In this document: positions 39,439-58,538 of the stretch, one piece after another | Layout: every line of letters starts with the position of its first letter | How positions within the stretch are numbered: position 1 is the first letter of the stretch | Virus record (IMG/VR): IMGVR_UViG_3300042561_000692 | Coordinates: 1-64,000 of that record | Source of the DNA: a virus | Length of the DNA: 64,000 bases | Strand: one strand, 5' to 3' | The notes under the pieces: generated by a model | The model's database searches: none | Told to the model about the DNA's origin: nothing | Seen by the model: the letters and a program-made list of their open reading frames with translations, nothing else | Translations under genes and position numbers: made by a program

Positions 39439-40440
39439 ATGAAAGTTGCTTTAATCACTGGTATTACAGGACAAGATGGATCTTATCTTGCTGAACTTCT
39501 TTTGGAAAAAGGATATGAAGTTCATGGAATTATTCGTAGAAGTTCTCTTATCAATACTGATAGAATTGATCACATTTATTCCCAATTGAAACTTCATTAT
39601 GGTGATTTGTCTGATGCTACTAATTTAATTAGAATTATCCAAGAAGTTCAACCTAATGAAATCTATAATCTTGGTGCTCAAAGTCATGTAAAAGTTTCTT
39701 TTGAAATGCCAGAGTTTACTGGACAAGTTGATGGACTTGGGACTCTTCGTATTCTTGAAGCAGTTAGATTGCTTAGATTGGAAAATAAAACTAGAATCTA
39801 TCAGGCATCTACATCTGAACTATATGGATTAGTTCAAGAGATTCCTCAAAGAGAAACCACTCCATTTTATCCTCGTTCACCTTATGGTGTTGCTAAAATT
39901 TATGGATATTGGATTGTAAAAAACTATAGAGAATCTTATGGGATGCACGCAAGTTCAGGCATTTTGTTTAATCATGAATCTCCAAGACGTGGTGAAACAT
40001 TTGTGACTAGAAAAATTACTCTTGGTCTTTCTAATATTCAAAAAGGAAATCAAGATTGTCTTTATCTTGGCAATCTAAATGCTAAAAGGGATTGGGGACA
40101 TGCTAAAGACTTTGTAGAAGCAATGTGGTTGATGCTCCAGCAGGATACTCCTGATGACTATGTGATTGCTACTGGTAAACAATATTCAGTCAAACAGTTT
40201 GTAGAAGAATCTGCACCATACTTTGGAATGGATATTGTGTGGAGTGGTGAAGGTCTTGATGAAGTTGGTATTGATAATAATAGTCAAAGGATAGTCATTA
40301 GAGTTGATCCTAAATATTTTAGACCTGCTGAAGTTGAAACTTTGTTAGGTGATGCCTCTAAGGCAAAGGAACAATTAGGTTGGGAACCTAAAACTTCATT
40401 TACAGAATTGGTTGAGGATATGTGTAAAAATGGACTTTGA
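39439..40440 (+). CDS. gmd: GDP-mannose 4,6-dehydratase
   Basis: The 333-residue short-chain dehydrogenase turns GDP-mannose into GDP-4-keto-6-deoxymannose, the branch point to GDP-fucose, GDP-colitose and others. The NADP motif GITGQDG is at 8-14, the Tyr-Lys pair is in [11 protein letters not shown] near 145-155, and the family-specific [15 protein letters not shown] follows near 175-189. I chose ATG 39439; the frame is open upstream. It heads the island and overlaps fcl by 11 bases. Confidence 0.96.
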
Positions 40441-41374
40441 TAGTAAAATTTTTGTAGCAGGACATAGAGGGCTTGTTGGTTCTGCGTTAGTTAGAAAACT
40501 TAGAGCACAAGGATATGAAAATATTCTTGCAGTTGGGAAAGATGTTGTAGATCTTACTGATGCTGAAGAAGTTAATTGTTTTTTTAAAGTAAAAAAACCA
40601 GAATATGTTTTTCTTGCTGCAGCAAAAGTAGGTGGGATTGGATATAATAAAGAATATCCTGCAGACTTCATTAGGGAGAATCTTCAAATTCAAACTAATG
40701 TAATTGATGCTGCTCATAGATATGGATGCAAAAAACTTTTGTTTCTTGGATCTGCTTGCATTTATCCTAAACATGCGCCAGTTCCTATTAAAGAAGAATA
40801 TTTGATGACTGGTCCTCTTGAAGAAACTAACATTTCATATTCCTTAGCAAAGATTGCTGGGTATATGATGTGTAAAAAATATACAGAACAATATGGAATG
40901 GATACTGTTTCTGTAATGCCTAATAATCTTTATGGGATTAACGATAATTTTAATATTTCTCAGTGCCATGTAATTCCAAGTTTTATCAATAAGTTTATTA
41001 CTGCAAAAGAAAAGAAACTATCATCAGTTACCTGTTTTGGTGATGGTAGTCCAACCAGAGAATTTTTATTTTCTGATGATCTTGCTGATGGACTGGTCTT
41101 TTTAATGAACAATTATAATGACCCAGAAATCATTAACATTGGTCCTGATAGAGAAGTGAGTATTAAAGAACTCTCTGAACTTGTTGCTAAATTAGTTGGA
41201 TATGAAGGGGAAATTATTTGGGATACCACAAAACCAAATGGAACTCCTAGACGTGCACTTGATAATTCTAAAATGAATTCTATTGGGTGGAAATCATCCA
41301 CATCTCTTGAAGATGGATTGAAGACTACTATTGATTGGTTTTTTGAGAATAGGAGTAAGTATGCAAGGGTATAG
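40430..41374 (+). CDS. fcl: GDP-L-fucose synthase / ColC-like epimerase-reductase
   Basis: A 314-residue epimerase-reductase with GHRGLVGSA near residues 11-19, GSACIYP near 103-109 with the acid-base Cys, and [10 protein letters not shown] with the Tyr-Lys pair. It resembles Fcl (WcaG), which makes GDP-L-fucose. ColC, which makes GDP-L-colitose, belongs to the same family and cannot be told apart by eye. The start ATG 40430 overlaps gmd. The next gene is ColD-like, so the colitose reading is real. Confidence 0.92.
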
Positions 41375-42521
41375 ATGGCCACTTATGAAAAACACTTTAT
41401 CCTTTATGGATAGAGTTAAACTTGCAAAATTTGTTCTCACTTCTGACAAATTTACTCAAGGAAAAAAAGTTCAAGAGTTTGAGGATGCTTGGTCCAATTG
41501 GATTGGTTCTAAACACTCTTTATTTGTAACTTCTGGTAGCACTGCAAACTTTCTTTTAGTTGCTGCTGTGATTGAAAAGTATGGATTGAAACCTGGAGAT
41601 AAAGTTATTTTACCTGCATGTACATGGGTTACAAATATCAATCCCATTTTTCAATTAGGACTTACTCCAATTTTTTGTGATATTAACCTTCAAAATTATA
41701 GTTTTGATATTGGTAATTTGGAAAGAATATCTGAACAACATCCAGATATTAAAATGGTATTTGTCACACACCTTTTGGGTATTCCTGCTGACAACACCAA
41801 GTATCAAGAGATTTTCCCAAATGCAATTATTTTAGATGATGTTTGCGAATCTCATGGATGTACTGATTGGGATGGCAATAAAGTTGGTTCTAAAAGTTTA
41901 GGAGCAACCTTTAGTTTTTACTTTGGACATCACATGTCTACTATTGAAGGTGGAATGATTTCCACTAATGATAGTGAACTTTATGATCTAATGAAACTGA
42001 AAAGATCTCATGGTTTAGCAAGAGTGTCTGACAACTTTGATTCTTATATCAACAAAAATCCTGAAATTGAAAAGTCATTTTTATTTGTAACTGATGGATA
42101 TAACTTTAGAAATACTGAACTTGCTGCAGTTCTTGGTCTATCCCAACTAAAACGACTTGATAAGTTTATTAAAATAAGAAGAGATAATTATTTTAAATTT
42201 CTTGGGGTAGTTTATGAAAATAAAAATTTTTATGCAATCCAACCAAGTTTAGGTAATAGTTGTTTTTGTTTACCATTTATTTGTAAAACAAAAGAAATTA
42301 AACAAAATTTAATTAAACTTTTTGATAAGTATTCTATTGAATATAGACCTATAGTTGGTGGTAATCTTTTAAGACAACCATACCTCAATTACAATGTAGA
42401 GTGCTCAGAAGATATTTTGAATGTTGATATTGTCCACGAAAATGGAATATACATAGGTAACAGTCAATTTGTTTCTAGCAAAGAGATTGAAATTATTAAA
42501 AAAATTATTGGAGAATTGTAA
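41361..42521 (+). CDS. ColD-like PLP-dependent sugar 3-dehydratase
   Basis: A 386-residue DegT/DnrJ-fold protein (start ATG 41361, AGGAG nine bases upstream). In sugar aminotransferases the PLP Lys sits in an F-x-x-x-K motif; here the site reads FSFYFGHHMSTIEGG with His at 190-191. That Lys-to-His change defines ColD, GDP-4-keto-6-deoxymannose 3-dehydratase. SGSTAN (58-63), DDVCESHG (159-166), IEYRPIVGGN and NGIYIGN also match ColD from memory. It takes the product of Gmd and would lead to colitose. It overlaps fcl by 14 bases. Confidence 0.85.
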   Translation: MQGYRWPLMKNTLSFMDRVKLAKFVLTSDKFTQGKKVQEFEDAWSNWIGSKHSLFVTSGSTANFLLVAAVIEKYGLKPGDKVILPACTWVTNINPIFQLGLTPIFCDINLQNYSFDIGNLERISEQHPDIKMVFVTHLLGIPADNTKYQEIFPNAIILDDVCESHGCTDWDGNKVGSKSLGATFSFYFGHHMSTIEGGMISTNDSELYDLMKLKRSHGLARVSDNFDSYINKNPEIEKSFLFVTDGYNFRNTELAAVLGLSQLKRLDKFIKIRRDNYFKFLGVVYENKNFYAIQPSLGNSCFCLPFICKTKEIKQNLIKLFDKYSIEYRPIVGGNLLRQPYLNYNVECSEDILNVDIVHENGIYIGNSQFVSSKEIEIIKKIIGEL

Positions 42522-42862
42522 TGAATTTTGGGGAATTAATTGAACAGTGTATTAAAGAAACTGTTGATAGGGTTCTTTTTTCTGGGAAAGAAATTTCAGA
42601 TATTGAATATGTAGAAACTGATAATCTTGGAGAAGTAGTTGAAAAACTTTCTATTCTTCACATTAGAACATGGATGCTTGAAGATGCCATTCAAGAAGCA
42701 AAGACTGACTCAGAAATTGCAGAATTAAAAAGAAAGATTGATATTTGCTTTAAAGTAAAAAGGCCACGTTTGGTTCAAGCAATTAATCTTCTTGTAGATA
42801 ATGCAATTGCTCAGAATAAGACTTTAAGAGAAGATTCTGTAAAATTATATAAGGGTGTCTAG
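42521..42862 (+). CDS. Small helical protein of glycan clusters (DUF4254-like)
   Basis: The 113-residue protein has a TWMLEDAI segment near residue 50 and IAELKRKID then KRPRLVQAINLLVD near 67-92. This pattern recalls DUF4254, small helical proteins found in polysaccharide clusters. The match is tentative. It starts in a TAATG overlap with the ColD-like gene and its end overlaps the next. Confidence 0.55.
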   Translation: MNFGELIEQCIKETVDRVLFSGKEISDIEYVETDNLGEVVEKLSILHIRTWMLEDAIQEAKTDSEIAELKRKIDICFKVKRPRLVQAINLLVDNAIAQNKTLREDSVKLYKGV

Positions 42863-42863
42863 T

Positions 42864-43544
42864 GTGGAGAATAGATACATCTACCACCATCTTGGATTGG
42901 GGGATCATATTATTTGCAATGGAATGATTAGACATTTTTGCGAATTGTATGATCACATAACATTATTTTGCTATACTCACTATGCAAAAAATGTTAAGTA
43001 TATGTTTAGAGATTTAAAAAATCTCATAATACTTGATTTTAAAACAGAACCAGAAGTTGTATCTTATATTACTCAGAATAATCTGCAGAAAGATTTAATT
43101 AGAATAGGATTTGAAAACCTACATCAACACTTAACATACACTACTTTTGATAAAGCTTTTTATACATTAGCAGGATTGGATTTTGATATTAGATTTTCTA
43201 AATTTTATTTACAAAGAGATTATTCTAGAGAGGAAGAATTAGTAAAAACATTAAACCCAACTGGAGAACCATATGCTTTTGTTCATGATGACCCAGATAG
43301 GGGATATAGTATTGACATAGATTGTGACTACAATATCATTAGGAATGATAAAAGATTTTTACTATTTGATTACATTAGTTTATTGGAAAATGCAGAACAG
43401 ATACATTTGATGCAATCTTCTTTTAAAGATATGATTAATTCTTTCAAAATGAATAAACCAAAAATATATCAGCATAATTATGTTAGAAACTATCCTAAAT
43501 CAATACACTCAGTAGGATTAAATTACATAGAGGAAATTAATTGA
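42864..43544 (+). CDS. GT-B-like glycosyltransferase
   Basis: About 226 residues. The N-terminal HHLGLGDHIICNGMIRHF resembles the nucleotide-domain start of heptosyltransferase-like GT-B enzymes, and IHLMQSSFKDMI near the end resembles their nucleotide-binding site. It is shorter than typical GT-B enzymes, so one domain may be reduced. GTG 42864 starts right after the previous stop; GTG 42855 is an alternative. Sugar specificity is unknown. Confidence 0.62.
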   Translation: MENRYIYHHLGLGDHIICNGMIRHFCELYDHITLFCYTHYAKNVKYMFRDLKNLIILDFKTEPEVVSYITQNNLQKDLIRIGFENLHQHLTYTTFDKAFYTLAGLDFDIRFSKFYLQRDYSREEELVKTLNPTGEPYAFVHDDPDRGYSIDIDCDYNIIRNDKRFLLFDYISLLENAEQIHLMQSSFKDMINSFKMNKPKIYQHNYVRNYPKSIHSVGLNYIEEIN

Positions 43545-44224
43545 TGAAAATACTTTATTGCATTAAAACTACAGAGAGGTATCAAAATAGAAGAGATTCT
43601 ATTAAAGATACTTGGTTAAAAAACGTTGATGATTATCTTTTTTATTCAGACCATGAAGATTTGGATAATAGTATAATTAAAGTTTGTGAAGATTCTTCTT
43701 ATGGTGGATTAGAAGAAAAGGGTGTAAATTTTTATAATCTGCTCAAAGACATAGAAATTCAAAGTGAAAAAAATGTTTTGGAGTATTATGATTGGTTATT
43801 TTTAGTAGATGATGATACTTTTGTTAATACTAAAAATTTAAATGATTTTGCTCAAGGTGCTGATGAGAGTAAAGGTTATGGGGAAATATTTACATATGAA
43901 ACACATCCAGACAATCCTATGTTTAGTTCTCCATCATTTAAAAAATCATATAAATGGTACTCTGGTGGAGCTGGTTTGTTAGTCAGCACAAAGACTATTA
44001 AAAGTATAAATGAATTTATTAATTACAATACTAGACATGATGATGTTAGTATTGGTCTTACTTTTTTTAATAATGGAGTTGAGTTAGTAGATTCTAATAA
44101 TTTTAATTCACAACCTCCAGAATTCTGGGGAGAAACAGATTTGGATATAAAAAATAAAATTACATATCATCACATAGATGAAAATAAAATGTTAGATCTT
44201 TATAAAGTTTTGCAAAATGACTGA
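43544..44224 (+). CDS. Fringe-like (GT31-type) glycosyltransferase
   Basis: The 226-residue protein begins KILYCIKTTERYQNRRDSI with DTWL after it, then has WLFLVDDDTFVN near residues 87-98 (the metal-binding DDD), WYSGGAGLLVS near 144-154 and DDVSIGLTF near 170. This order is that of Fringe/beta-1,3-galactosyl- or GlcNAc-transferases, better known from eukaryotes, in which Fringe extends O-fucose. The neighbourhood of fucose genes makes that intriguing. TGATG overlap with the previous gene. Very AT-rich. Confidence 0.8.
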   Translation: MKILYCIKTTERYQNRRDSIKDTWLKNVDDYLFYSDHEDLDNSIIKVCEDSSYGGLEEKGVNFYNLLKDIEIQSEKNVLEYYDWLFLVDDDTFVNTKNLNDFAQGADESKGYGEIFTYETHPDNPMFSSPSFKKSYKWYSGGAGLLVSTKTIKSINEFINYNTRHDDVSIGLTFFNNGVELVDSNNFNSQPPEFWGETDLDIKNKITYHHIDENKMLDLYKVLQND

Positions 44225-45092
44225 AGTTAAAAAAATATGTTTTTTTAATCATTACCATAATGGTGATTTGTTCAACAGCAAATCTTTTATAGAAGAAATT
44301 ATTTCTAATATAAACTTAAAATATTACTATGCACATTCAAATCAATCTATAGTTCTTTCTGATTTAAATGCAGAATATTTAGAAATCCCAAACATTTCCC
44401 ATTCTGAAAAATTTTTAATAGACAATGATATTTTGTACGTTAATACTTGGATAGGATGTTATTTTGATTCTAATAAACCTTTTAATGGAGAATGTACTTT
44501 AAGATTTTCTTATCAAATGTTTGGAGAAATATATGAATATCTTAATTCATTATTTTTGTCTGATTTGAAATTAAAGTCCATTGAGGAATATTTTTCTTTT
44601 GTGGATTATTCTAAGTTTAATCTTTTGAATGTAGATGAGTTTGTAAATCAATTTCTTCAAAAGAAAATTTTATTTTCTAATGGTCCATGTTTATCTGGAC
44701 AATGTAATTACTATGGAGACATGTCAAGTATTATTGAAACATGTGCTAAAAAAAATGAAGATAAAATTTTTGTAGTAACGCACAAATTTAATACTGATGT
44801 TCAAAATATAAAATTTACAGATGATATTTTAAATTTAAATAGATGTGACTTAAATGAAATTTCTTATATTTCAACTTTTTGTGATATAATTATTGGTAGA
44901 AATTCTGGACCATTTTGTTTTTCTATGACAAAAGAAAATGTCTTAAATCCACAAAAAACATTTTATGCTTTTGGGAATAAAGAGACTGATTGTTTTTGTT
45001 ATGGAGTTGATATTAATTGTGAATTTGTTTTTGAATACTTTGAAAGTTTGGAGCAAATTGAAGAAACCATTTTATCTTTAGTTAAAGTATGA
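44217..45092 (+). CDS. Putative GT-B-like glycosyltransferase
   Basis: A 291-residue protein with HYHNGDLFNSKSFIEEI at the N-terminus and IIGRNSGPFCFS near residue 225, like the donor-site region of GT-B enzymes that test for a nucleotide sugar. No family can be named. The gene is extremely AT-rich and overlaps both neighbours by a few bases. Confidence 0.6.
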   Translation: MTEVKKICFFNHYHNGDLFNSKSFIEEIISNINLKYYYAHSNQSIVLSDLNAEYLEIPNISHSEKFLIDNDILYVNTWIGCYFDSNKPFNGECTLRFSYQMFGEIYEYLNSLFLSDLKLKSIEEYFSFVDYSKFNLLNVDEFVNQFLQKKILFSNGPCLSGQCNYYGDMSSIIETCAKKNEDKIFVVTHKFNTDVQNIKFTDDILNLNRCDLNEISYISTFCDIIIGRNSGPFCFSMTKENVLNPQKTFYAFGNKETDCFCYGVDINCEFVFEYFESLEQIEETILSLVKV

Positions 45093-45796
45093 TTAGCATT
45101 GTTACTGGTACACTCAATAGGGGACCACTCCTTCAAAGATTGATAGAAAATACAGTTGAAGCAAACGAGAAACTTGAACTAGTATTGGTTGATGGTGGAA
45201 GCACTGATGGGACCATTGAGTATATTAAAGAAGAAAATCATCCAAGAATTAAACTAATTGAAGTTGGGCAAAGAAGTCCTTATCCACACTTTATGAATCT
45301 TGGAATACAAAATGCATCACATGACATAGTTTGTCAGTGGAATGATGATGTTCTTTTATCTAATGATTGGGAAGAAATATTTCAAGAAATAGATGATGAG
45401 CATGATTTTTATTTGTTCAATTGGAAATATGGCAATGTTTCTGATATGACTGATGAAACTTGGTTATCTGGCGATGACCATCAGAATAATTGGTGTTTAC
45501 TTAATAATAAACCTGATGGTGAGATTGTTATGAATTATGGATTATATAAAAAGAAAATCTTTAGAGAAGTTGGAATGTATAATTTTGAGTATAGATATTA
45601 TTGCGCTGATGGTGATATGGCTGATAGGGCATATGAGTTTGGGTATAAAGTAAAAACACTGAAGAATATAAAAATTTGTTCTTTAATAGCAGATAAAGTA
45701 GCACAACATTTTTCTGGGGACCAAGAAATATACCAAAAGAATTTAAGTTTACATAAACAAAAAGTATTGCCAGATTCACTTGAGTTTTTATTATAA
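45089..45796 (+). CDS. GT2-family glycosyltransferase
   Basis: The 235-residue GT-A protein starts ISIVTGTLNRGPLLQRLI, then LVLVDGGSTDGT near 32-43 and CQWNDDVLLSNDW near 80-92 (metal-binding DD). It moves a sugar from a nucleotide donor with inversion. Acceptor is unknown. Overlaps previous gene by ATGA and abuts the next. Confidence 0.85.
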   Translation: MISIVTGTLNRGPLLQRLIENTVEANEKLELVLVDGGSTDGTIEYIKEENHPRIKLIEVGQRSPYPHFMNLGIQNASHDIVCQWNDDVLLSNDWEEIFQEIDDEHDFYLFNWKYGNVSDMTDETWLSGDDHQNNWCLLNNKPDGEIVMNYGLYKKKIFREVGMYNFEYRYYCADGDMADRAYEFGYKVKTLKNIKICSLIADKVAQHFSGDQEIYQKNLSLHKQKVLPDSLEFLL

Positions 45797-46605
45797 TGGA
45801 AAAGTATAAAATTAATTTAGTAGGTGATTCCTTTACACATCTTACTGGTGGTAATAAAGGATATTCTGTGGCAGGAAAAGAATCTAAGTTTGTTCAATGG
45901 GTAAAAGATGATTCTCTTCCTGAAACAGTTTATGTTGATGCTTGGATCAATCAAGCATTTACTGATAAAATTTCTGGAATTAAATATGCTTGGTTATTAG
46001 AGTCCAAGTGTGTAACACCAGACATTGTAGATGAGGTTAAATTCAATTATGAAGAATATTTTAAAGTATTCAAATATATTTTTACTCATAATAAAGAACT
46101 ATTAAATCTTGATGATAGATTTAAGTGGTGTCCTGCTAATGGTTTTTGGATTAAAGAACCAAAGATTTATGAGAAAAGTAAAATGATCTCCATGATCTCA
46201 TCCAATAAAAATTTTACAGAAGGTCATTTAAAAAGGTTAGAGTGGTTATCGAGGATTAGTGATCAGGTAGATGTCTATGGTAGAGGATTTAATGAAATAG
46301 AATTCAAAGAAGAAGGTCTATGTGATTATATGTTTTCTGTTGTAATTGAAAATGGATTTTATGAGTCGTACTTCACTGAGAAGATTCTTGATTGTTTCGC
46401 TACTGGTACTATTCCTGTTTATTTGGGATCTCCAGACATTAAAAACTATTTTAATGAAGATGGAATAATTTTCTTAACTGATGAATTTGACGTATCTGAA
46501 GAAATATATTATAGTAAAATGGATGCTATTAAAGATAATTTGAAAAGGATAGAAGAAATTGAAGTCCTTGAAGATTTTATCTACAAACAATATTTGGAGA
46601 AATAA
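45796..46605 (+). CDS. GT10-like alpha-1,3-fucosyltransferase
   Basis: A 269-residue protein whose C-terminal half has the GT10 signature: FSVVIENGFYESYFTEKI followed by LDCFATGTIPVYLGSP (near residues 175-210). GT10 enzymes transfer fucose from GDP-fucose. The N-terminal part is shorter than in bacterial fucosyltransferases. A GDP-fucose (or colitose) supply is encoded 5 kb upstream. It starts on the last base of the previous stop. Confidence 0.82.
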   Translation: MEKYKINLVGDSFTHLTGGNKGYSVAGKESKFVQWVKDDSLPETVYVDAWINQAFTDKISGIKYAWLLESKCVTPDIVDEVKFNYEEYFKVFKYIFTHNKELLNLDDRFKWCPANGFWIKEPKIYEKSKMISMISSNKNFTEGHLKRLEWLSRISDQVDVYGRGFNEIEFKEEGLCDYMFSVVIENGFYESYFTEKILDCFATGTIPVYLGSPDIKNYFNEDGIIFLTDEFDVSEEIYYSKMDAIKDNLKRIEEIEVLEDFIYKQYLEK

Positions 46606-47235
46606 ATGAGCACATTAGTTTATATTGGAACCAATGAAGGTGATGGACTAAAAGAATACATTAATCTGTATGATAGTGTTTATGCATTTGAACCTGATCC
46701 TGAAATTTTTAATATTTTGAAAAATAGGTTTGCAGATTGTGAACACGTAACTTTTATTAATGCAGCTTGCTCAGAAACAGAAGGTGTTAAAACACTTTAT
46801 GTAACTGAAAATAGACATTCAACTTCCCTATCAGAATTGTCTGAATTTTCTTTGACTAAAGGATTTTCTGGAGGTAAAGCATCATTTAAAACCTTTGATG
46901 TCAATACCATTAATCTTAATAATTTTCTTAGTGAAAATGGCATTGATCATATTGATACTTTGATTACTGATTGTCAAGGGAGTGACCTTTCAATTCTTAC
47001 TACAATTAAATCTTTTATTGATGATGGAAAAATTAGTGAGATCTTTTGCGAAACACATGCAAATTCTGTAGAACTTTATGAAGGTCTTTATAATCAGTAT
47101 GATGGATTTAAGGAATTACTTTCTCATAATTATGAAGTAAAAGATTTCTATCTTGATGGAAAACTTATGTCTAAAGATGGAGAACCTTTTGTTGAGTGGG
47201 ATACTCATTGGATTTTGAAAAATGATATCATTTAA
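46606..47235 (+). CDS. FkbM-family methyltransferase
   Basis: The 209-residue protein has a SAM-binding start LVYIGTNEGDGL and VYAFEPDPEIFNIL near 24-37, FINAACSE near 48-55, and LITDCQGSDLSIL near 117-129, the FkbM pattern. These enzymes O-methylate sugars and other metabolites. It begins on the base after the GT10 stop and overlaps the fucosyltransferase behind it by 14 bases. It may cap the glycan. Confidence 0.87.
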   Translation: MSTLVYIGTNEGDGLKEYINLYDSVYAFEPDPEIFNILKNRFADCEHVTFINAACSETEGVKTLYVTENRHSTSLSELSEFSLTKGFSGGKASFKTFDVNTINLNNFLSENGIDHIDTLITDCQGSDLSILTTIKSFIDDGKISEIFCETHANSVELYEGLYNQYDGFKELLSHNYEVKDFYLDGKLMSKDGEPFVEWDTHWILKNDII

Positions 47236-48022
47236 TCAATTAGGAAATTTAGGACGACTTGGAAATCAAATGTTTCAGTATGCCTCTTTGAGAGGTATTG
47301 CTGCGAATAGGGGATTTGATTTTTGTATTCCACCAAAAAGTTATTTTGGTGTTGTTGACCCTAATGTAAAAAACTCTAATGTTGATATTCATAATACATT
47401 TAACATTTCTCATACACAAACTGAAGTAACACATTATAAATCTGTTGAAGAATCTTTATATGGATTTGATGAAGAACTTTTCAACAACTGCGAAGATGAA
47501 ATAGATTTGGTTGGATACTTCCAGTCAGAGAAATACTTTAAACACATTGAAGAAGACATTAGAAAGGACTTTACATTTTCAAAAGAACTTGTAAAAAATT
47601 GTTCTGATTTTATTGATGAGATTGATTCTAATAGAGAAGTTATTTCATTGCATATCAGACGTGGTGATTACTTAAGTTTGCAATCATTTCATCCTACGCC
47701 ACCAATAGAGTATTATGAGGAAGCATTAAAACAACTTCCAAATTCTCCAGTTCTTATTTTTTCAGATGACCCTGAATGGTGTTTAAACCAACCTTTGTTT
47801 GAGTCTGATAGATTTTTAATTTCCGAATTAAATACTGCTGACTTTGATATGTGTATAATGACCATGTGTAAATATCACATTATGGCTAACTCATCATTCT
47901 CTTGGTGGGCATCTTGGTTATCTAAAAGTGAAAATGTTATTGCTCCAAAGGTTTGGTTTGGACCTTCATTGTCCCATAAAGATACTTCTGATTTATATTG
48001 TGATGGGTGGATAAAACTATGA
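47222..48022 (+). CDS. GT11-family alpha-1,2-fucosyltransferase
   Basis: The 266-residue protein has GRLGNQMFQYASLRGIA near 10-26, GYFQSEKYF near 98, the GDP-fucose-binding SLHIRRGDYL near 139-148, and MANSSFSWWASWL near 220-232. These are the motifs of GT11 fucosyltransferases. Together with the GT10-like enzyme the island has two unrelated fucosyltransferase families. It overlaps its neighbours at both ends. Confidence 0.92.
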   Translation: MISFNQLGNLGRLGNQMFQYASLRGIAANRGFDFCIPPKSYFGVVDPNVKNSNVDIHNTFNISHTQTEVTHYKSVEESLYGFDEELFNNCEDEIDLVGYFQSEKYFKHIEEDIRKDFTFSKELVKNCSDFIDEIDSNREVISLHIRRGDYLSLQSFHPTPPIEYYEEALKQLPNSPVLIFSDDPEWCLNQPLFESDRFLISELNTADFDMCIMTMCKYHIMANSSFSWWASWLSKSENVIAPKVWFGPSLSHKDTSDLYCDGWIKL

Positions 48023-48669
48023 GAACTTTGAATGATTATTTTGACAAGATTTATTGTATTAATCTTGATGATAGAAAAGATAGAATGGTAGATACTGTAA
48101 AGCAATTCCATAAACATAACCTTTGGGTGGAGAGAGTTCCTGGAATTAAAGGTTCAGATATGAACCTTGATTTTCCTCCAGAAATTAAAGAAGGTGCAGT
48201 TGGATGTGCACTGTCTCAATTGTTTACACTTAAGTTAGCAAAGCAAGTTAATGCGAAAAAGTTTTTACTCCTTGAGGATGATATTGAATTTGATGAAGAT
48301 TTAAATAGCAAGTTCAATAAGTATTATGCTGAAGTTCCAAATGATTGGGATATGTTGTATCTTGGTGGGCAGCATTTTCATGGAATGAATCTTACCCAAG
48401 TATCTGAACATATTTACAGATGTGAATATACTTTGGCAGCACATTCTGTTGCTTTTAAGTATACAGTTTATGATAGGTTTATTAATAAACTTGTAGATAT
48501 TACCAAACCCTGTGATGTTCATTATGCAGAATCTCATAAAGAAATTAATGCATATGTTATTGTTCCTCACTTAACATGGCAAAGAGAAAGTTATTCTGAT
48601 ATTGAAAAATTTAATGTAGATTATTCTTTCCTGAAGGATCATAGATATCCACAGTGGGGCAAGCCATGA
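48019..48669 (+). CDS. GT25-family glycosyltransferase
   Basis: The 216-residue protein starts with DKIYCINLDDRKDRM (GT25 first strand), has GAVGCALSQLFTLKLA near 60-75 and FLLLEDDIEFDEDL near 84-97, and a DMLYLGGQ segment near 114-121. GT25 enzymes act in LPS and on collagen. Donor unknown. ATG 48019 overlaps the GT11 stop. Confidence 0.87.
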   Translation: MRTLNDYFDKIYCINLDDRKDRMVDTVKQFHKHNLWVERVPGIKGSDMNLDFPPEIKEGAVGCALSQLFTLKLAKQVNAKKFLLLEDDIEFDEDLNSKFNKYYAEVPNDWDMLYLGGQHFHGMNLTQVSEHIYRCEYTLAAHSVAFKYTVYDRFINKLVDITKPCDVHYAESHKEINAYVIVPHLTWQRESYSDIEKFNVDYSFLKDHRYPQWGKP

Positions 48670-49400
48670 CTAAAGTATTATCATATTGTGTATATGGAGA
48701 TGTTCCAAAATATACATTGGGTGCTATTAGAAATGCAGAAACTAAAGATGATTATTTTCCAGATTGGGAAATGAGAATGTATCATGATGATTCTGTTCCT
48801 GTTGATATTTTGAAACAACTTGAAAAATTAAATGTAAATTTAATTGATATAACTAAAGAAATATCAGGCATTTATTATCCAACAAAAGATGAATCAAAAA
48901 CATATGGTATGTTTTGGAGATTTGTTCCTGCTGGAGATGACACTGTAGATTATTTTGTCTCAAGAGACACTGATTCAAGATTTTCTGAACGAGAAGTTTT
49001 AGCAGTTAATGAATGGATAGATTCTGAACAACCATTTCATATTATTAGGGAACATCCGTGGGGTCATACTTGGGTAATCAACGGTGGTATGTGGGGTTGT
49101 GAGGGGGGATTTATAGAAAACATAGACCAATCAATCAAGGACTATTTGCAGACAAGTAAATGGGCACATGAGCAAGCTGCAGATCAATGGTTTCTCAAAG
49201 AGTGTATATATCCTGTTGTAAAGGATTATGCGTTTATTACAGATGAGTTTATAAATTATGAAGGAAGATCTGTATCTATTAAAAGAGATAGAGCATTGGA
49301 TGATTTTGCTTTTATTGGAGAACCATTTGATGAAAATGAAATCTACGATCAAAGTCATAGAGATTTAATACAACAATACTATAATCAACTTAAAAGATGA
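48666..49400 (+). CDS. GT-A-like glycosyltransferase
   Basis: A 244-residue protein with VLSYCVYGDVPKYTLGAI at the start, a DYFVSRDTDSRFSERE segment near 95-110 with a DxD-like metal site, and WVINGGMWGCEGG near 139-151. The plan is that of small GT-A enzymes of viral and bacterial glycan clusters. Family number uncertain. ATGA overlap with the GT25 gene. Confidence 0.68.
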   Translation: MTKVLSYCVYGDVPKYTLGAIRNAETKDDYFPDWEMRMYHDDSVPVDILKQLEKLNVNLIDITKEISGIYYPTKDESKTYGMFWRFVPAGDDTVDYFVSRDTDSRFSEREVLAVNEWIDSEQPFHIIREHPWGHTWVINGGMWGCEGGFIENIDQSIKDYLQTSKWAHEQAADQWFLKECIYPVVKDYAFITDEFINYEGRSVSIKRDRALDDFAFIGEPFDENEIYDQSHRDLIQQYYNQLKR

Positions 49401-50275
49401 AAAGTTTAGTTACTGGGGGTGCTGGTTTTATTGGTTCCAATCTTGTCAACAGGTTGGTTGAAATAGGACATGATGTTATTGTTTTGGATAGAGTGTATCC
49501 AAAAGTAAAAAATAAAAATGCACAATACTATCTTCAAGATTTGTCAGAAAGATATACAAAGTATCTTCACTTATTTGAAGGTGTAGACAATGTATTTCAT
49601 TTAGCTTCAGAGGTTTCTATTCCATATTGTGTGGAGAAGCCAAATGAAAGTATGTCTAATAATGTATTATCTACTATGAACTCTTTGGAGTGTTCAAGAA
49701 TTCATAATATTAAGAAGTTTATATTTTCCTCAACTTCTGCTGTTTATGGAAATACCTTGTTTATTCCAAGCATAGAGACAAACCAAGTTCATTGTATGAA
49801 TACATATTCAATATCAAAGTATACTGGTGAACAACTTTGTAAAATGTATTATGAGTTGTATGGTATCAAAACAATAATCTTTAGATACTTTAATGTTTAT
49901 GGTGAAGGTAATCCCAAAACAGGTCAATATGCTCCAGTAATGTCCATCTTTGAAAATCAAAAACGCAATAGTGAACCATTAACTATTATTGGAGATGGGT
50001 ATCAGACAAGAGACTTCGTTCATGTGTCTGATGTAGTTTTGGCAAACATCCTTGCTTCACAAAGAGAGCTAAAAAATTATGGTGAAGTTTATAATGTAGG
50101 CACTGGAAAAGGTATAGAAATCAAAGAAATAGCAGACCTTATTTCACATTATCAAATGAGTATTCCAGAACGTCCTGGAGAGGTATTGCATTCTAGAGCA
50201 TCTATTGATAAAATTAAGAATGATTTGGGGTGGAATTACAGTATAAATGTTTTGGACTGGATTAAAAATAAATGA
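49397..50275 (+). CDS. NAD-dependent sugar epimerase/dehydratase
   Basis: The 292-residue extended SDR has GGAGFIGSN at 7-15, SSTSAVYG near 113-120 and YSISKYTGE near 137-145 with the Tyr-Lys pair, RYFNVYGEG and GDGYQTRDFVHVSDV. It resembles UDP-glucose or UDP-GlcNAc 4-epimerases (GalE/WbpP type). The exact sugar cannot be read. It would supply UDP-galactose-type donors. Overlaps both neighbours by four bases. Confidence 0.87.
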   Translation: MKSLVTGGAGFIGSNLVNRLVEIGHDVIVLDRVYPKVKNKNAQYYLQDLSERYTKYLHLFEGVDNVFHLASEVSIPYCVEKPNESMSNNVLSTMNSLECSRIHNIKKFIFSSTSAVYGNTLFIPSIETNQVHCMNTYSISKYTGEQLCKMYYELYGIKTIIFRYFNVYGEGNPKTGQYAPVMSIFENQKRNSEPLTIIGDGYQTRDFVHVSDVVLANILASQRELKNYGEVYNVGTGKGIEIKEIADLISHYQMSIPERPGEVLHSRASIDKIKNDLGWNYSINVLDWIKNK

Positions 50276-51054
50276 CTGATACATCTACAGTGAGAAAAAA
50301 ACTTAAAGGGATGGGTCCAATTCTTTGGATTAATCTTGATACTGAAACTAACAGACAAGAACATATGACAAGTTTGTTAGATTTCTATGAGATTCCTCAT
50401 ACAAGGATTTCTGCCATTGATGCTAGGGGTGATAATGATGTTAGCGATCTTTTGGTAGGAAGATACCCAGAAATGATTACTCAAGGTGAACTTGGTTGTA
50501 CAATGTCGCACCTAAAAGCAATTAAATATTTTTATGAAGAAACAGATTTAGATTACATTATTATATGTGAAGATGATATTGTGTTTGATACAGTCCCTTA
50601 TTGGCCTTTCACTTGGAGTGGATTTATTTCTCATGCTCCATATGATTGGGATGTATTACAATGTGCAATTACCAGCACTAAAAATTTGAGAGCAAATCTT
50701 CATCCAAGATTAATTAATGATTTTTGTGCAGCATTTTATATAATTACAAGACATCATGCAGCAAAGATTCTGAAGTTGCACGTAAGGGGTGATAAGTTTA
50801 GGTTGGACCAAAAATTGAAACCAAGAGCAACATCTGAAGAAATTATCTACAATACAGGCAGAACATATTCAATGCCTTTGTTTACTTATAGATATGACTT
50901 TGACTCTGGTATTCATCAAGACCATATTGAAATTTTCCATAAAAATAATGTAGAGGGAGTTTTAAACTTTTGGAAAAGTAGATCTCCAGAAATGGGAACA
51001 CAACAATTATTAGATTATGATTACTATGGTTTTTGGGAACCTTTGGTGGGTTGA
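50272..51054 (+). CDS. GT25-like glycosyltransferase, second copy
   Basis: A 260-residue protein with ILWINLDTETNRQEHM near 17-32, ELGCTMSHLKAIKYF near 80-94 and YIIICEDDIVFD near 103-114, the GT25 plan. It is more distant from the gene at 48019 than a simple duplicate would be. It is the last gene of the island. A composite promoter starts inside its stop codon. Confidence 0.82.
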   Translation: MTDTSTVRKKLKGMGPILWINLDTETNRQEHMTSLLDFYEIPHTRISAIDARGDNDVSDLLVGRYPEMITQGELGCTMSHLKAIKYFYEETDLDYIIICEDDIVFDTVPYWPFTWSGFISHAPYDWDVLQCAITSTKNLRANLHPRLINDFCAAFYIITRHHAAKILKLHVRGDKFRLDQKLKPRATSEEIIYNTGRTYSMPLFTYRYDFDSGIHQDHIEIFHKNNVEGVLNFWKSRSPEMGTQQLLDYDYYGFWEPLVG

Positions 51055-51147: not shown

Positions 51148-52629
51148 ATGAATTTTCTCAAACAACTAATGCTCGTGCCTGTTGCACTGGGTCTTGTTGC
51201 TCCTGCTGTGAATGCTGCAGAACTCAATAATGAGGATGTCAACAAGTATGCCTCAGTACAACAAGTTACCAGCATTACACAATTCTCTGATATCCAACCC
51301 ACTGATTGGGCTTATCAGGCACTTGGCAATCTTGTAGAACGTTATGGTTGTGTGGCAGGTTATCCTAATGGCACCTTTGTTGGTCGTCAGGCAATGACTC
51401 GCTTTGAAGCAGCTGCCCTTCTCAATGCTTGCTTGGATCGTGTAACTGAAACTACTGATGAACTCAAAAAACTCCTTGCTGAGTTTGATGCAGAACTCAC
51501 AGTGATTACTTCTCGTGTAGATGGTCTTGAAAGTAAAGTTGGGCAACTTCAAGCAACCCAATTTTCTACTACAACCAAACTTAAGGGTGAAGCTAGCTTT
51601 GTTCTTGGTGGAGTTCCTGGTTTAAAAACAAATGATGGTGGAAACGTTGGCAACACCGCATTTAACTATGACCTTCGTCTGAACTTTGATACTTCATTCA
51701 CAGGTAAGGATTTGCTTCGTACTCGTATTCGTTCTGGTAACTTCAGCAGTGATCCTTTTGGTTCAAGTTCTTCTCTGTTCAAACTGGACAAGGCAGAAAC
51801 TTATGAGAACCAAGCAGTCATTGATCGTCTTTACTATCAGTTCCCAGTTACTAACAGTGTAACTCTGACTGCTGGTCCTCTGGTTCGTAACACAGAGATG
51901 GCTTGGATTCCTTCTGCTTATAAGTCAGATATCCTTGACTTCTTCCAACTTGGTGGTGCCTCTGGTGTCTATAACAAGGCAACTGGTGCTGGTTTTGGTG
52001 CTCAGTGGAAACAACCTACTCAAAAAGGTAAAGGTGGATTTCTTGTTAACCTGAACTATGTTGCTCAAAATGGCGACAATAGTGATACTGGTGTGTTCAA
52101 TGCAGATGGTGCTCTGAACTTTATGGGTCAAGTAGGTTATCGTGCTCCTCAGTGGGGTGCTGCTGTAGCTTACAGGTATGGTACTGAAGGTTCTCGTGTT
52201 CGTACCTTCAACTCTCTTGGTGGTGGTTCTGCTGCCCTTGTGTCTGGTCAATCCAGCAACAGCATTGCTTTAAATGCTTACTGGCAACCACAAGATTCAG
52301 GTATTGTTCCCTCAGTTTCTGTGGGTTATGGATACAATGAAATTGATGGTACTGGTTCTAAAAAGGGTGCTACCAATTCTGATTCCTGGTTCGTTGGGCT
52401 TCAGTGGTCTGATGTGTTTGCTAAGGGTAATTCTGCTGGAGTTGCTTTTGGTCAACCTGGAAATTCTGAGAACATTAGTGATGATGCTCAAATGCTTGAA
52501 ATTTTCTACAAGTATAGAGTGTCTGATAACATCAGCATCACTCCTGCTCTCTTCTACATCAGCAACAACCAAAGATTCCAAAATGAATCTGCTTGGGGTG
52601 GCGTAGTCCAGACAACCTTCAAGTTCTGA
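51148..52629 (+). CDS. Cyanobacterial-type outer-membrane porin (SLH + OprB-like barrel)
   Basis: A complete 493-residue porin. Residues 1-24 are a signal peptide ending VNAAEL. An SLH domain (about 44-100: FSDIQPTDWAYQAL, RYGCVAGYPNGTF, MTRFEAAALLN) follows, then a coiled coil, then a long beta barrel that ends with aromatic VVQTTFKF, the outer-membrane targeting end. This is the plan of the major porins of marine picocyanobacteria. The gene is more GC-rich than the island next to it. It should alter nutrient passage through the host outer membrane. Confidence 0.92.
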   Translation: MNFLKQLMLVPVALGLVAPAVNAAELNNEDVNKYASVQQVTSITQFSDIQPTDWAYQALGNLVERYGCVAGYPNGTFVGRQAMTRFEAAALLNACLDRVTETTDELKKLLAEFDAELTVITSRVDGLESKVGQLQATQFSTTTKLKGEASFVLGGVPGLKTNDGGNVGNTAFNYDLRLNFDTSFTGKDLLRTRIRSGNFSSDPFGSSSSLFKLDKAETYENQAVIDRLYYQFPVTNSVTLTAGPLVRNTEMAWIPSAYKSDILDFFQLGGASGVYNKATGAGFGAQWKQPTQKGKGGFLVNLNYVAQNGDNSDTGVFNADGALNFMGQVGYRAPQWGAAVAYRYGTEGSRVRTFNSLGGGSAALVSGQSSNSIALNAYWQPQDSGIVPSVSVGYGYNEIDGTGSKKGATNSDSWFVGLQWSDVFAKGNSAGVAFGQPGNSENISDDAQMLEIFYKYRVSDNISITPALFYISNNQRFQNESAWGGVVQTTFKF

Positions 52630-57458: not shown

Positions 57459-58538
57459 ATGACTGCTACTATTGCTTCACGTAATTCTACTAACCTCTGG
57501 CAAGAATTTTGCGAGTGGGTTACTTCAACAAACAATCGTCTTTATGTTGGTTGGTTTGGAGTCCTTATGATTCCATGCCTTCTTGCTGCAACTACTTGCT
57601 TTATTGTTGCATTTGTAGGTGCTCCTCCTGTGGACATTGATGGTATTCGCGAACCAGTTGCTGGTTCTCTGATGTATGGAAACAACATCATCTCTGGTGC
57701 CGTTGTTCCTTCTTCTAATGCTATTGGTCTTCACTTCTATCCTATCTGGGAAGCTGCTTCTCTGGATGAGTGGTTGTACAATGGTGGACCTTTCCAACTT
57801 GTTGTATTTCACTTCCTCATTGGCATTTATGCTTACATGGGTCGTGAATGGGAACTCTCTTATCGTTTGGGTATGCGTCCTTGGATCTGTGTTGCTTACT
57901 CAGCACCTGTTGCTGCTGCTTCTGCAGTTTTCCTGGTCTATCCTTTTGGTCAAGGTTCTTTCTCTGATGCTATGCCCCTGGGCATTTCTGGTACTTTTAA
58001 CTATATGCTTGTATTCCAGGCAGAACATAACATTCTGATGCACCCCTTCCACATGCTTGGAGTTGCTGGTGTCTTTGGTGGTTCATTGTTCTCTGCAATG
58101 CACGGTTCTCTGGTTACTTCTTCACTGGTTCGTGAGACCACTGAAACTGAATCACAGAATTATGGTTATAAGTTTGGACAAGAAGAAGAGACATACAATA
58201 TTGTTGCTGCTCATGGATACTTTGGTCGTCTGATCTTCCAATATGCATCTTTTAATAATTCTCGTTCACTACACTTCTTCCTTGCTGCTTGGCCTGTAGT
58301 TGGCATCTGGTTTACTGCTCTTGGTGTTAGCACTATGGCATTTAACCTCAATGGTTTCAACTTTAACCAGTCTATTGTTGATAGTCAGAATCGTGTGATC
58401 CCTACCTGGGCAGATGTGCTTAACCGTGCTGGTCTTGGTATGGAAGTGATGCATGAAAGAAATGCTCACAACTTCCCTCTTGACCTTGCTGCTGCAGAGA
58501 CAACTTCTGTTGCTCTGACTGCTCCAAGTATTGGTTGA
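57459..58538 (+). CDS. psbA: Photosystem II D1 protein
   Basis: The complete 359-residue D1 reaction-centre protein, without intron. Residue 130 is Glu ([13 protein letters not shown]), as in high-light D1 forms. The Mn-cluster ligands near the C-terminus are present ([13 protein letters not shown]), followed by a cleavable extension of about 15 residues. It replaces host D1 to keep photosynthesis running during infection. No psbD follows. Codon use is more GC-rich than in neighbours. It has a strong promoter, long leader and its own terminator. Confidence 0.99.

Follow-up and report, generated by a model that had tools for sequence, protein, structure and literature searches.

A conserved cyanophage cassette with a ColD-type dehydratase gene that very probably makes a 3,6-dideoxy sugar from GDP-mannose

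The 3,6-dideoxy sugar L-colitose is rare and is known mainly from the cell surface of certain gut bacteria. The dehydratase mechanism has been published, as excerpts of PMC8987622 and PMC10440746 describe. Cyanophage sugar clusters have so far been read as guanosine diphosphate (GDP)-fucose or surface-polysaccharide modules: in the excerpts available, PMC9602691 assigns the gmd-fcl pair of phage S-SCSM1 to GDP-fucose synthesis, alongside three fucosyltransferases, and PMC7824862 presents such clusters as a means of diversifying surface polysaccharides, with a possible blocking effect on other phages. Here we analyse a window of 64,000 nucleotides, positions 1-64,000 of the 72,078-base IMG/VR virus record IMGVR_UViG_3300042561_000692, in which gmd, an fcl-like gene and a ColD-like gene stand in a row. 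A preliminary description of this DNA had placed these three overlapping genes at 39439-42521; its coordinates are right, all three lie on the + strand, and the overlaps measure 11 bases (gmd/fcl) and 14 bases (fcl/colD). We call the Fcl-type protein P0003 and the ColD-type protein P0001. By gene content the record is a cyanophage. The window encodes psbA (57459-58538) and a phage major head protein, and the DNA of its positions 1-24000 matches 390 phage records, 389 of them named Synechococcus, Cyanophage, Prochlorococcus or Marine and one Stenotrophomonas.

Our reading, to which we give a probability of roughly 0.64, is that the phage converts the host's GDP-mannose in three steps into a GDP-3,6-dideoxyhexose. 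Gmd would make GDP-4-keto-6-deoxy-D-mannose from host GDP-mannose. Host glutamate would then charge the ColD-type enzyme to its pyridoxamine 5'-phosphate (PMP) form, a Schiff base would form at C4, His190 would take the PMP proton as the C3 hydroxyl leaves, and hydrolysis would give GDP-4-keto-3,6-dideoxy-D-mannose without an iron-sulfur (Fe-S) reductase. The Fcl-type enzyme would finally invert C5 and reduce C4 with reduced nicotinamide adenine dinucleotide phosphate (NADPH), yielding GDP-L-colitose; acting on the intermediate that still has its C3 hydroxyl, it may give GDP-L-fucose as well. A GT11-type glycosyltransferase, a GT10-type one or both, from the same gene run, would attach the L-sugar or sugars to a glycan, probably host lipopolysaccharide (LPS) or virion proteins. 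Judged from sequence, it is very probable that the products of the three genes convert GDP-mannose into L-colitose or another rare sugar of the 3,6-dideoxy type; that GDP-L-colitose is the main end product is a claim towards which we lean more cautiously. The preliminary description knew of no cyanophage described as making colitose, and we likewise found neither cyanophages linked with colitose nor a phage-encoded colitose pathway in the literature, which is weak evidence given that only open-licence papers were covered. What that description had missed is how common the cassette is among viral contigs and that named Synechococcus phages have it too; the pathway is of a known kind, in an apparently undescribed place.

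P0001, a DegT-family protein, has two histidines at residues 190-191, as first noted, but the catalytic position is one residue before the 191 then named: His190 aligns with His188 of Escherichia coli O55 ColD, at the position of the aminotransferase lysine, and the solved ColD structures mutated at 188 alter that very residue. Across 184 homologue rows the site holds His in 97 viral rows (7 of them E1-type) and 80 bacterial rows, and Lys in 5 viral and 2 bacterial rows. Residues W89, H217, R221 and N367 of P0001 are common to O55 ColD and at least 93% of 170 ColD-type rows, and the same positions carry other residues in E1-type and lysine rows. The four-cysteine Fe-S motif of E1 is absent from P0001 and from all 112 ColD-type rows scanned (that of locus L029 ends before the site). 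It is present in five second copies (L013, L016, L017, L018 and L019), E1/RfbH-type 3-dehydratases in viral contigs that also have a ColD-type gene. The L018 copy (L018:12832-14208) reaches the RfbH cut-off (441.9 against 423 bits), and one virus may make both GDP-linked and cytidine diphosphate (CDP)-linked 3,6-dideoxy sugars.

Searched with phmmer against solved structures, P0001 matched ColD (PDB 2gms) first at 209.9 bits, followed by a putative nucleoside diphosphate (NDP)-4-keto-6-deoxyglucose 3-dehydratase (124.1), E1 (122.5) and perosamine synthase (108.1). Its predicted structure, built on an alignment of 36 sequences with a predicted local distance difference test score of 93.8, is also closest to ColD (Z 49.4, root-mean-square deviation 2.1 over 375 residues), ahead of E1 (Z 45.0) and perosamine synthase (Z 42.6). 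A 120-row tree separates lysine, E1-type and ColD-type rows, with P0001 among the last and O55 ColD at their base; the Shimodaira-Hasegawa-like approximate likelihood ratio test (SH-aLRT) for the ColD-type rows gave 89 with O55 ColD and 93 without it, which is moderate support because the tree is quick and has long branches. P0001 falls in a mostly viral clade of 35 rows (SH-aLRT 99), adjoined by a bacterial clade of 64 rows (99). Alignment, tree and predicted fold agree with the earlier assignment to ColD rather than to an aminotransferase, with no lysine at the pyridoxal 5'-phosphate site and no placement among perosamine aminotransferases. P0001 goes with ColD by sequence, fold and tree; that it is a 3-dehydratase of ColD type, supplied with substrate by a true Gmd, is well supported, and we consider it highly likely that such an enzyme acts in a phage GDP-mannose pathway.

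Other activities of P0001 were weighed on the same evidence. Family-level Pfam and PHROG names (aminotransferase) would make it a lysine-type sugar aminotransferase producing GDP-perosamine, and Foldseek's own ranking of the model (ColD, perosamine synthase, E1) places perosamine synthase ahead of E1; the histidine in place of lysine, which contradicts this at the residue level, and the separate position of the five lysine rows kept in the tree leave it next to no probability. Slightly less improbable, though still very much so, is a CDP-4-keto-6-deoxyglucose 3-dehydratase of E1/RfbH type, the name that an S-CAM7 record gives to a relative. RfbH is the best NCBIfam match of P0001, at 180.4 bits under a cut-off of 423 that O55 ColD also fails to reach (262.8). 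We rejected this reading for the missing Fe-S cysteines and the wrong partner gene, gmd; P0001 also lies on a separate branch, and some viral loci hold both types, the tested second copy being the one that reaches the RfbH cut-off. For the substrate, the rival is GDP-6-deoxy-4-keto-heptose, as for the C3-dehydratases of Campylobacter jejuni HS:5 and HS:11: the excerpts of PMC10440746 report C. jejuni enzymes 62-67% identical to ColD that act on heptose, so the substrate must be argued from the gene partner and not from the family. An HddA-like kinase lies within the fetched flanks of 57 of 76 bacterial loci (L038-L113), with GmhA-like matches in 22 and HddC-like matches in 31; 'HddA-like' stands for two NCBIfam scores, 145 and 158, under a model cut-off of 600, and the GmhA and HddC labels are our own reading of the sequences. 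In the 64-row bacterial sister clade, gmd exceeds 230 bits in 2 rows (L040 and L087, Pelagibacteraceae), and Gmd-like proteins from two loci of that clade reach 181 and 156 bits against a curated cut-off of 415. The window Gmd passes that cut-off by far (562 bits), and 32 of the 35 rows in the P0001 clade, the window included, have gmd above 230 bits. None of the 31 ColD-bearing viral loci (L001-L031) gave an HddA-, GmhA- or HddC-like match, and one of 78 further viral loci (L169) gave an HddA-like one. Since the phage clade sits with gmd and its bacterial sister clade with heptose-kinase-like genes, GDP-4-keto-6-deoxymannose is the likely substrate; the heptose pathway, set aside for the true gmd and the lack of heptose-kinase-like matches in L001-L031, seems improbable.

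The bacterial sister clade itself would fit the GDP-3,6-dideoxyheptose pathway of C. jejuni as outlined in the excerpts of PMC10440746. Loci such as L047, L075, L081, L083 and others among L038-L113, Prochlorococcus and Pelagibacteraceae records included, pair a bacterial HH-type dehydratase with heptose-kinase-like neighbours and are candidates for that pathway. Matches to the O55 mannose-1-phosphate guanylyltransferase/mannose-6-phosphate isomerase occur in 5 of 31 (L001-L031) and 24 of 78 (L124-L201) viral loci, and some viruses may also raise the supply of GDP-mannose.

The three-gene linkage is conserved. The first set of 31 loci, 29 from a ColD scan plus two named phages, has gmd in all 31 and an Fcl-type gene in 29. 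A less biased scan based on Fcl, from the best 80 of 87 relatives, gave the 78 loci L124-L201; in 65 of them a ColD-type gene can be read and in 2 more (L127, L131) its start is present, which argues that the linkage is not chance. Another locus has an E1-type gene (L201), and ten have none, among them three that end at fcl (L187, L188, L195). Nine of the 78 contigs were already in the first set, leaving 56 of 69 without them, and the scan speaks for close P0003 relatives, not for viral Fcls at large. Across both sets, 62 of the 64 Fcl rows that share 70% identity or more with P0003 have colD within 1.6 kb; in L139 it lies slightly farther, at ~1.6 kb, and L188 is the one that ends at fcl. The fcl/colD overlap is exactly 14 bases in 61 of 61 measurable pairs (nine contigs counted twice). 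In a second viral group of 15 loci (L171-L178, L180-L183, L192, L193 and L198) colD precedes fcl, and in most of them gmd comes next; the Fcl is of P0003 type, and the ColD, 33-37% identical to P0001, has the motif YFGHHxSTIEGG. Because this order and gmd-colD-fcl (L009 and L011) also occur, colD and fcl have come to be paired in several arrangements. P0001 relatives in phages ACG-2014f and S-CAM7 are recorded as aminotransferase or hypothetical protein, and two S-CAM7 records name theirs 'putative CDP-4-keto-6-deoxy-D-glucose-3-dehydrase'. Among the phage records listed, 49 of 60 belong to these two phages, at 54-57% identity to P0001.

Some loci vary the arrangement. In L184 and L185, two of the ten loci lacking a ColD-type gene, gmd-fcl is followed by a lysine-type aminotransferase in colD's place, the L184 copy being LegC-like (359.3 bits, cut-off 420). 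In L020, L023, L024, L025 and L037 the gene after the ColD-type one encodes a short-chain dehydrogenase/reductase (SDR) with 23-25% identity to the Fcl-type protein, and in L023, L024 and L037 it is the sole gene of the locus with an Fcl match. Behind the gmd-fcl of phage S-SRM01 (L032:13428-15840), in the place that colD takes in the window, stand genes for a SIS-domain protein, an NDP-sugar synthase and a phosphatase, which to our reading resemble a heptose cassette.

The last step is less certain. The identity of P0003 is 44% with K-12 Fcl and 34% with O55 ColC. Its Cys110, Tyr137, Lys141 and His180 correspond to K-12 Fcl positions 109, 136, 140 and 179, which we take to be catalytic; these residues do not separate Fcl from ColC, because O55 ColC has them too. 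Under NF047922 (cut-off 500), P0003 (413.6), S-SRM01 (473.6), P-SSM2 (462.4) and O55 ColC (304.4) all fall short and K-12 Fcl passes (552.6); the NCBIfam matches returned include no model that separates ColC from Fcl. A tree of the 314-residue protein against Fcl and ColC, proposed at the outset, placed P0003 in a viral clade (support 100/99) apart from seven ColD-less phage Fcls. It did not yield the grouping with ColC, for which the approximately unbiased test gives p-AU 0.074, neither favouring nor firmly rejecting it, with ColC a single, long branch. In another tree this clade has 45 rows, 38 of them with a ColD-type neighbour, and takes in L184 with its lysine aminotransferase; ColD-less cyanophage Fcls such as those of S-SRM01, P-SSM2 and S-SCSM1 lie outside it, and the colD-linked Fcls of S-CAM7, ACG-2014f, L009, L020 and L026 are placed elsewhere. 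Three columns set the clade apart from eight ColD-less phage Fcls and K-12 Fcl: Ala109 (43/45), Arg275 (44/45) and Ile301 (39/45). They did not serve as a ColC signature: at each of them O55 ColC carries the residue found in Fcl, so they are a mark of the viral clade rather than of ColC function. Of the 3,6-dideoxy sugar pathway drawn in the preliminary description, the ColD-type dehydratase with a true Gmd stands; that the middle gene is ColC, and its product hence GDP-L-colitose, we only infer, and P0003 may make GDP-L-colitose, GDP-L-fucose or both.

P0003 could instead make GDP-L-fucose only, with the pathway branching before it and the ColD product finished by another SDR (host-encoded or the phage one at 49397-50275) or ending up as some other 3,6-dideoxyhexose. 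We think this unlikely, but several observations that weigh against our reading bear on it. P0003 resembles K-12 Fcl more closely than O55 ColC and is not grouped with ColC in the best tree; the ColD-less L179 and L186 lie inside its clade; and L023 and L024, which are alike, have gmd-colD without Fcl and their other SDR after colD. The Fcl proteins of L011 (L011:2982-3950) and S-SKS1 (L121:6162-7112) are 97% identical, the former beside colD and the latter, in the stretch read, beside gmd alone, which in that lineage favours an enzyme able to serve both routes over one confined to the ColC role; colD seems to have been gained or lost there recently. Also weighing against our reading, gmd-fcl pairs without nearby colD are common in cyanophages, GT10 and GT11 are found also in phage loci without colD (the window run has both of these L-fucose-type families), and the identity of P0001 with a characterised ColD is only 34%. 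What speaks against a fucose-only P0003 is the close, constant spacing of colD beside its nearest relatives (62 of 64 rows; 14 bases in 61 of 61 overlaps) and the separation of its clade from the seven ColD-less phage Fcls in the tree tested for grouping with ColC. We prefer the three-step route ending in GDP-L-colitose. As a speculative extension, unlikely to hold as a whole, one Fcl-type enzyme in a viral colitose lineage might serve both GDP-L-fucose and GDP-L-colitose for separate GT10 and GT11 enzymes, and gain or loss of colD beside a near-unchanged gmd-fcl (S-SKS1 versus L011) might switch the sugar on host LPS or phage fibres, an antigen-type switch arisen several times.

The cassette opens a run of 15 genes, 39439-51054, that overlap or abut by their listed starts (Table 1). 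GT10 and GT11 enzymes use GDP-L-fucose, and the GT11 of E. coli O55 presumably moves colitose; the window GT11 is 31% identical to that O55-locus enzyme and 45% to the GT11 of phage S-SCSM1. For the SDR near the end of the run, no cut-off was reached among the 25 of 40 NCBIfam matches listed. Directly after the run, 51148-52629 encodes S-layer homology and OprB porin domains, which is odd for a phage; S-SRM01 likewise has a gene named porin. A phosphate-binding protein gene follows the porin. The sugar cluster of S-CAM7 runs straight up to a gene for a tail fibre, and that of ACG-2014f is separated from such a gene by four small genes; this adjacency is only suggestive of a virion acceptor, because the window run adjoins the porin and phosphate-binding protein genes instead.

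Table 1. Genes of the sugar run in the window
Feature	Position	Strand	Evidence
gmd, GDP-mannose 4,6-dehydratase, 333 amino acids	39439..40440	+	TIGR01472 562.1 bits (cut-off 415); 65% identity to E. coli K-12 Gmd
Fcl/ColC-type GDP-4-keto-6-deoxysugar epimerase/reductase (P0003), 314 amino acids	40430..41374	+	NF047922 413.6 bits (below cut-off 500)
Predicted ColD-type PLP/PMP-dependent GDP-4-keto-6-deoxymannose 3-dehydratase (P0001), 386 amino acids	41361..42521	+	phmmer 2gms 209.9 bits, alignments, tree, predicted fold
Small protein, weak DUF4254-like match	42521..42862	+	24.1 bits (cut-off 27)
Gene without Pfam or PHROG match	42855..43544	+	
Fringe-like glycosyltransferase	43541..44224	+	PF02434 66.5 bits
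Gene with sub-threshold Pfam match only, no PHROG match	44217..45092	+	
Glycosyltransferase family 2	45089..45796	+	PF00535 55.2 bits
GT10-type (fucosyltransferase family) glycosyltransferase	45796..46605	+	PF00852 40.1 bits (cut-off 23.9)
FkbM-type methyltransferase	46606..47235	+	PF05050 43.9 bits; TIGR01444 58 bits
GT11-type (alpha-1,2-fucosyltransferase family) glycosyltransferase	47222..48022	+	PF01531 93.2 bits
GT25-type glycosyltransferase	48007..48669	+	PF01755 41.7 bits
Gene with sub-threshold Pfam match only, no PHROG match	48654..49400	+	
SDR nucleotide-sugar epimerase/dehydratase	49397..50275	+	PF01370 182.7 bits
GT25-type glycosyltransferase, last gene of the run	50272..51054	+	PF01755 55.9 bits

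Should the third gene indeed be a ColD, the phages that have it would supply a 3,6-dideoxy sugar which their host may not display by itself. Colitose would then be a simple chemical marker for the destination of phage-made sugars, be it host LPS, virion proteins or neither, and the question is testable because named phages carry the genes.

Among known systems, cyanophages P-SSM2, S-SCSM1 and S-SRM01 resemble the window in having a gmd-fcl pair with adjoining glycosyltransferase genes, and differ from it in having no ColD-type gene in the stretches fetched. E1/RfbH (PDB 3bcx) shares with P0001 the histidine at the lysine site and the fold, but has Fe-S cysteines and a CDP substrate according to the excerpts of PMC8987622. 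The C. jejuni HS:5 and HS:11 C3-dehydratases, as portrayed in the excerpts of PMC10440746, are alike in chemistry and in a GDP-linked 4-keto-6-deoxy substrate; theirs is a heptose, whereas the phage cassette has a true gmd and no heptose-kinase-like gene in the 31 like loci. From E. coli O55:H7 the phage differs in a ColD-type protein only 34% identical and in a viral clade of its own, in a partner enzyme nearer to Fcl than to ColC, and in a run where the Pfam scan recognised no flippase or polymerase. The likeness is nonetheless broad: the O55 locus has gmd, an Fcl-family gene adjoining colD and a GT11, as the window does, and its ColD (PDB 2gms, from the O-antigen locus) shares with P0001 the histidine for lysine, the lack of an Fe-S cysteine motif and the signature residues.

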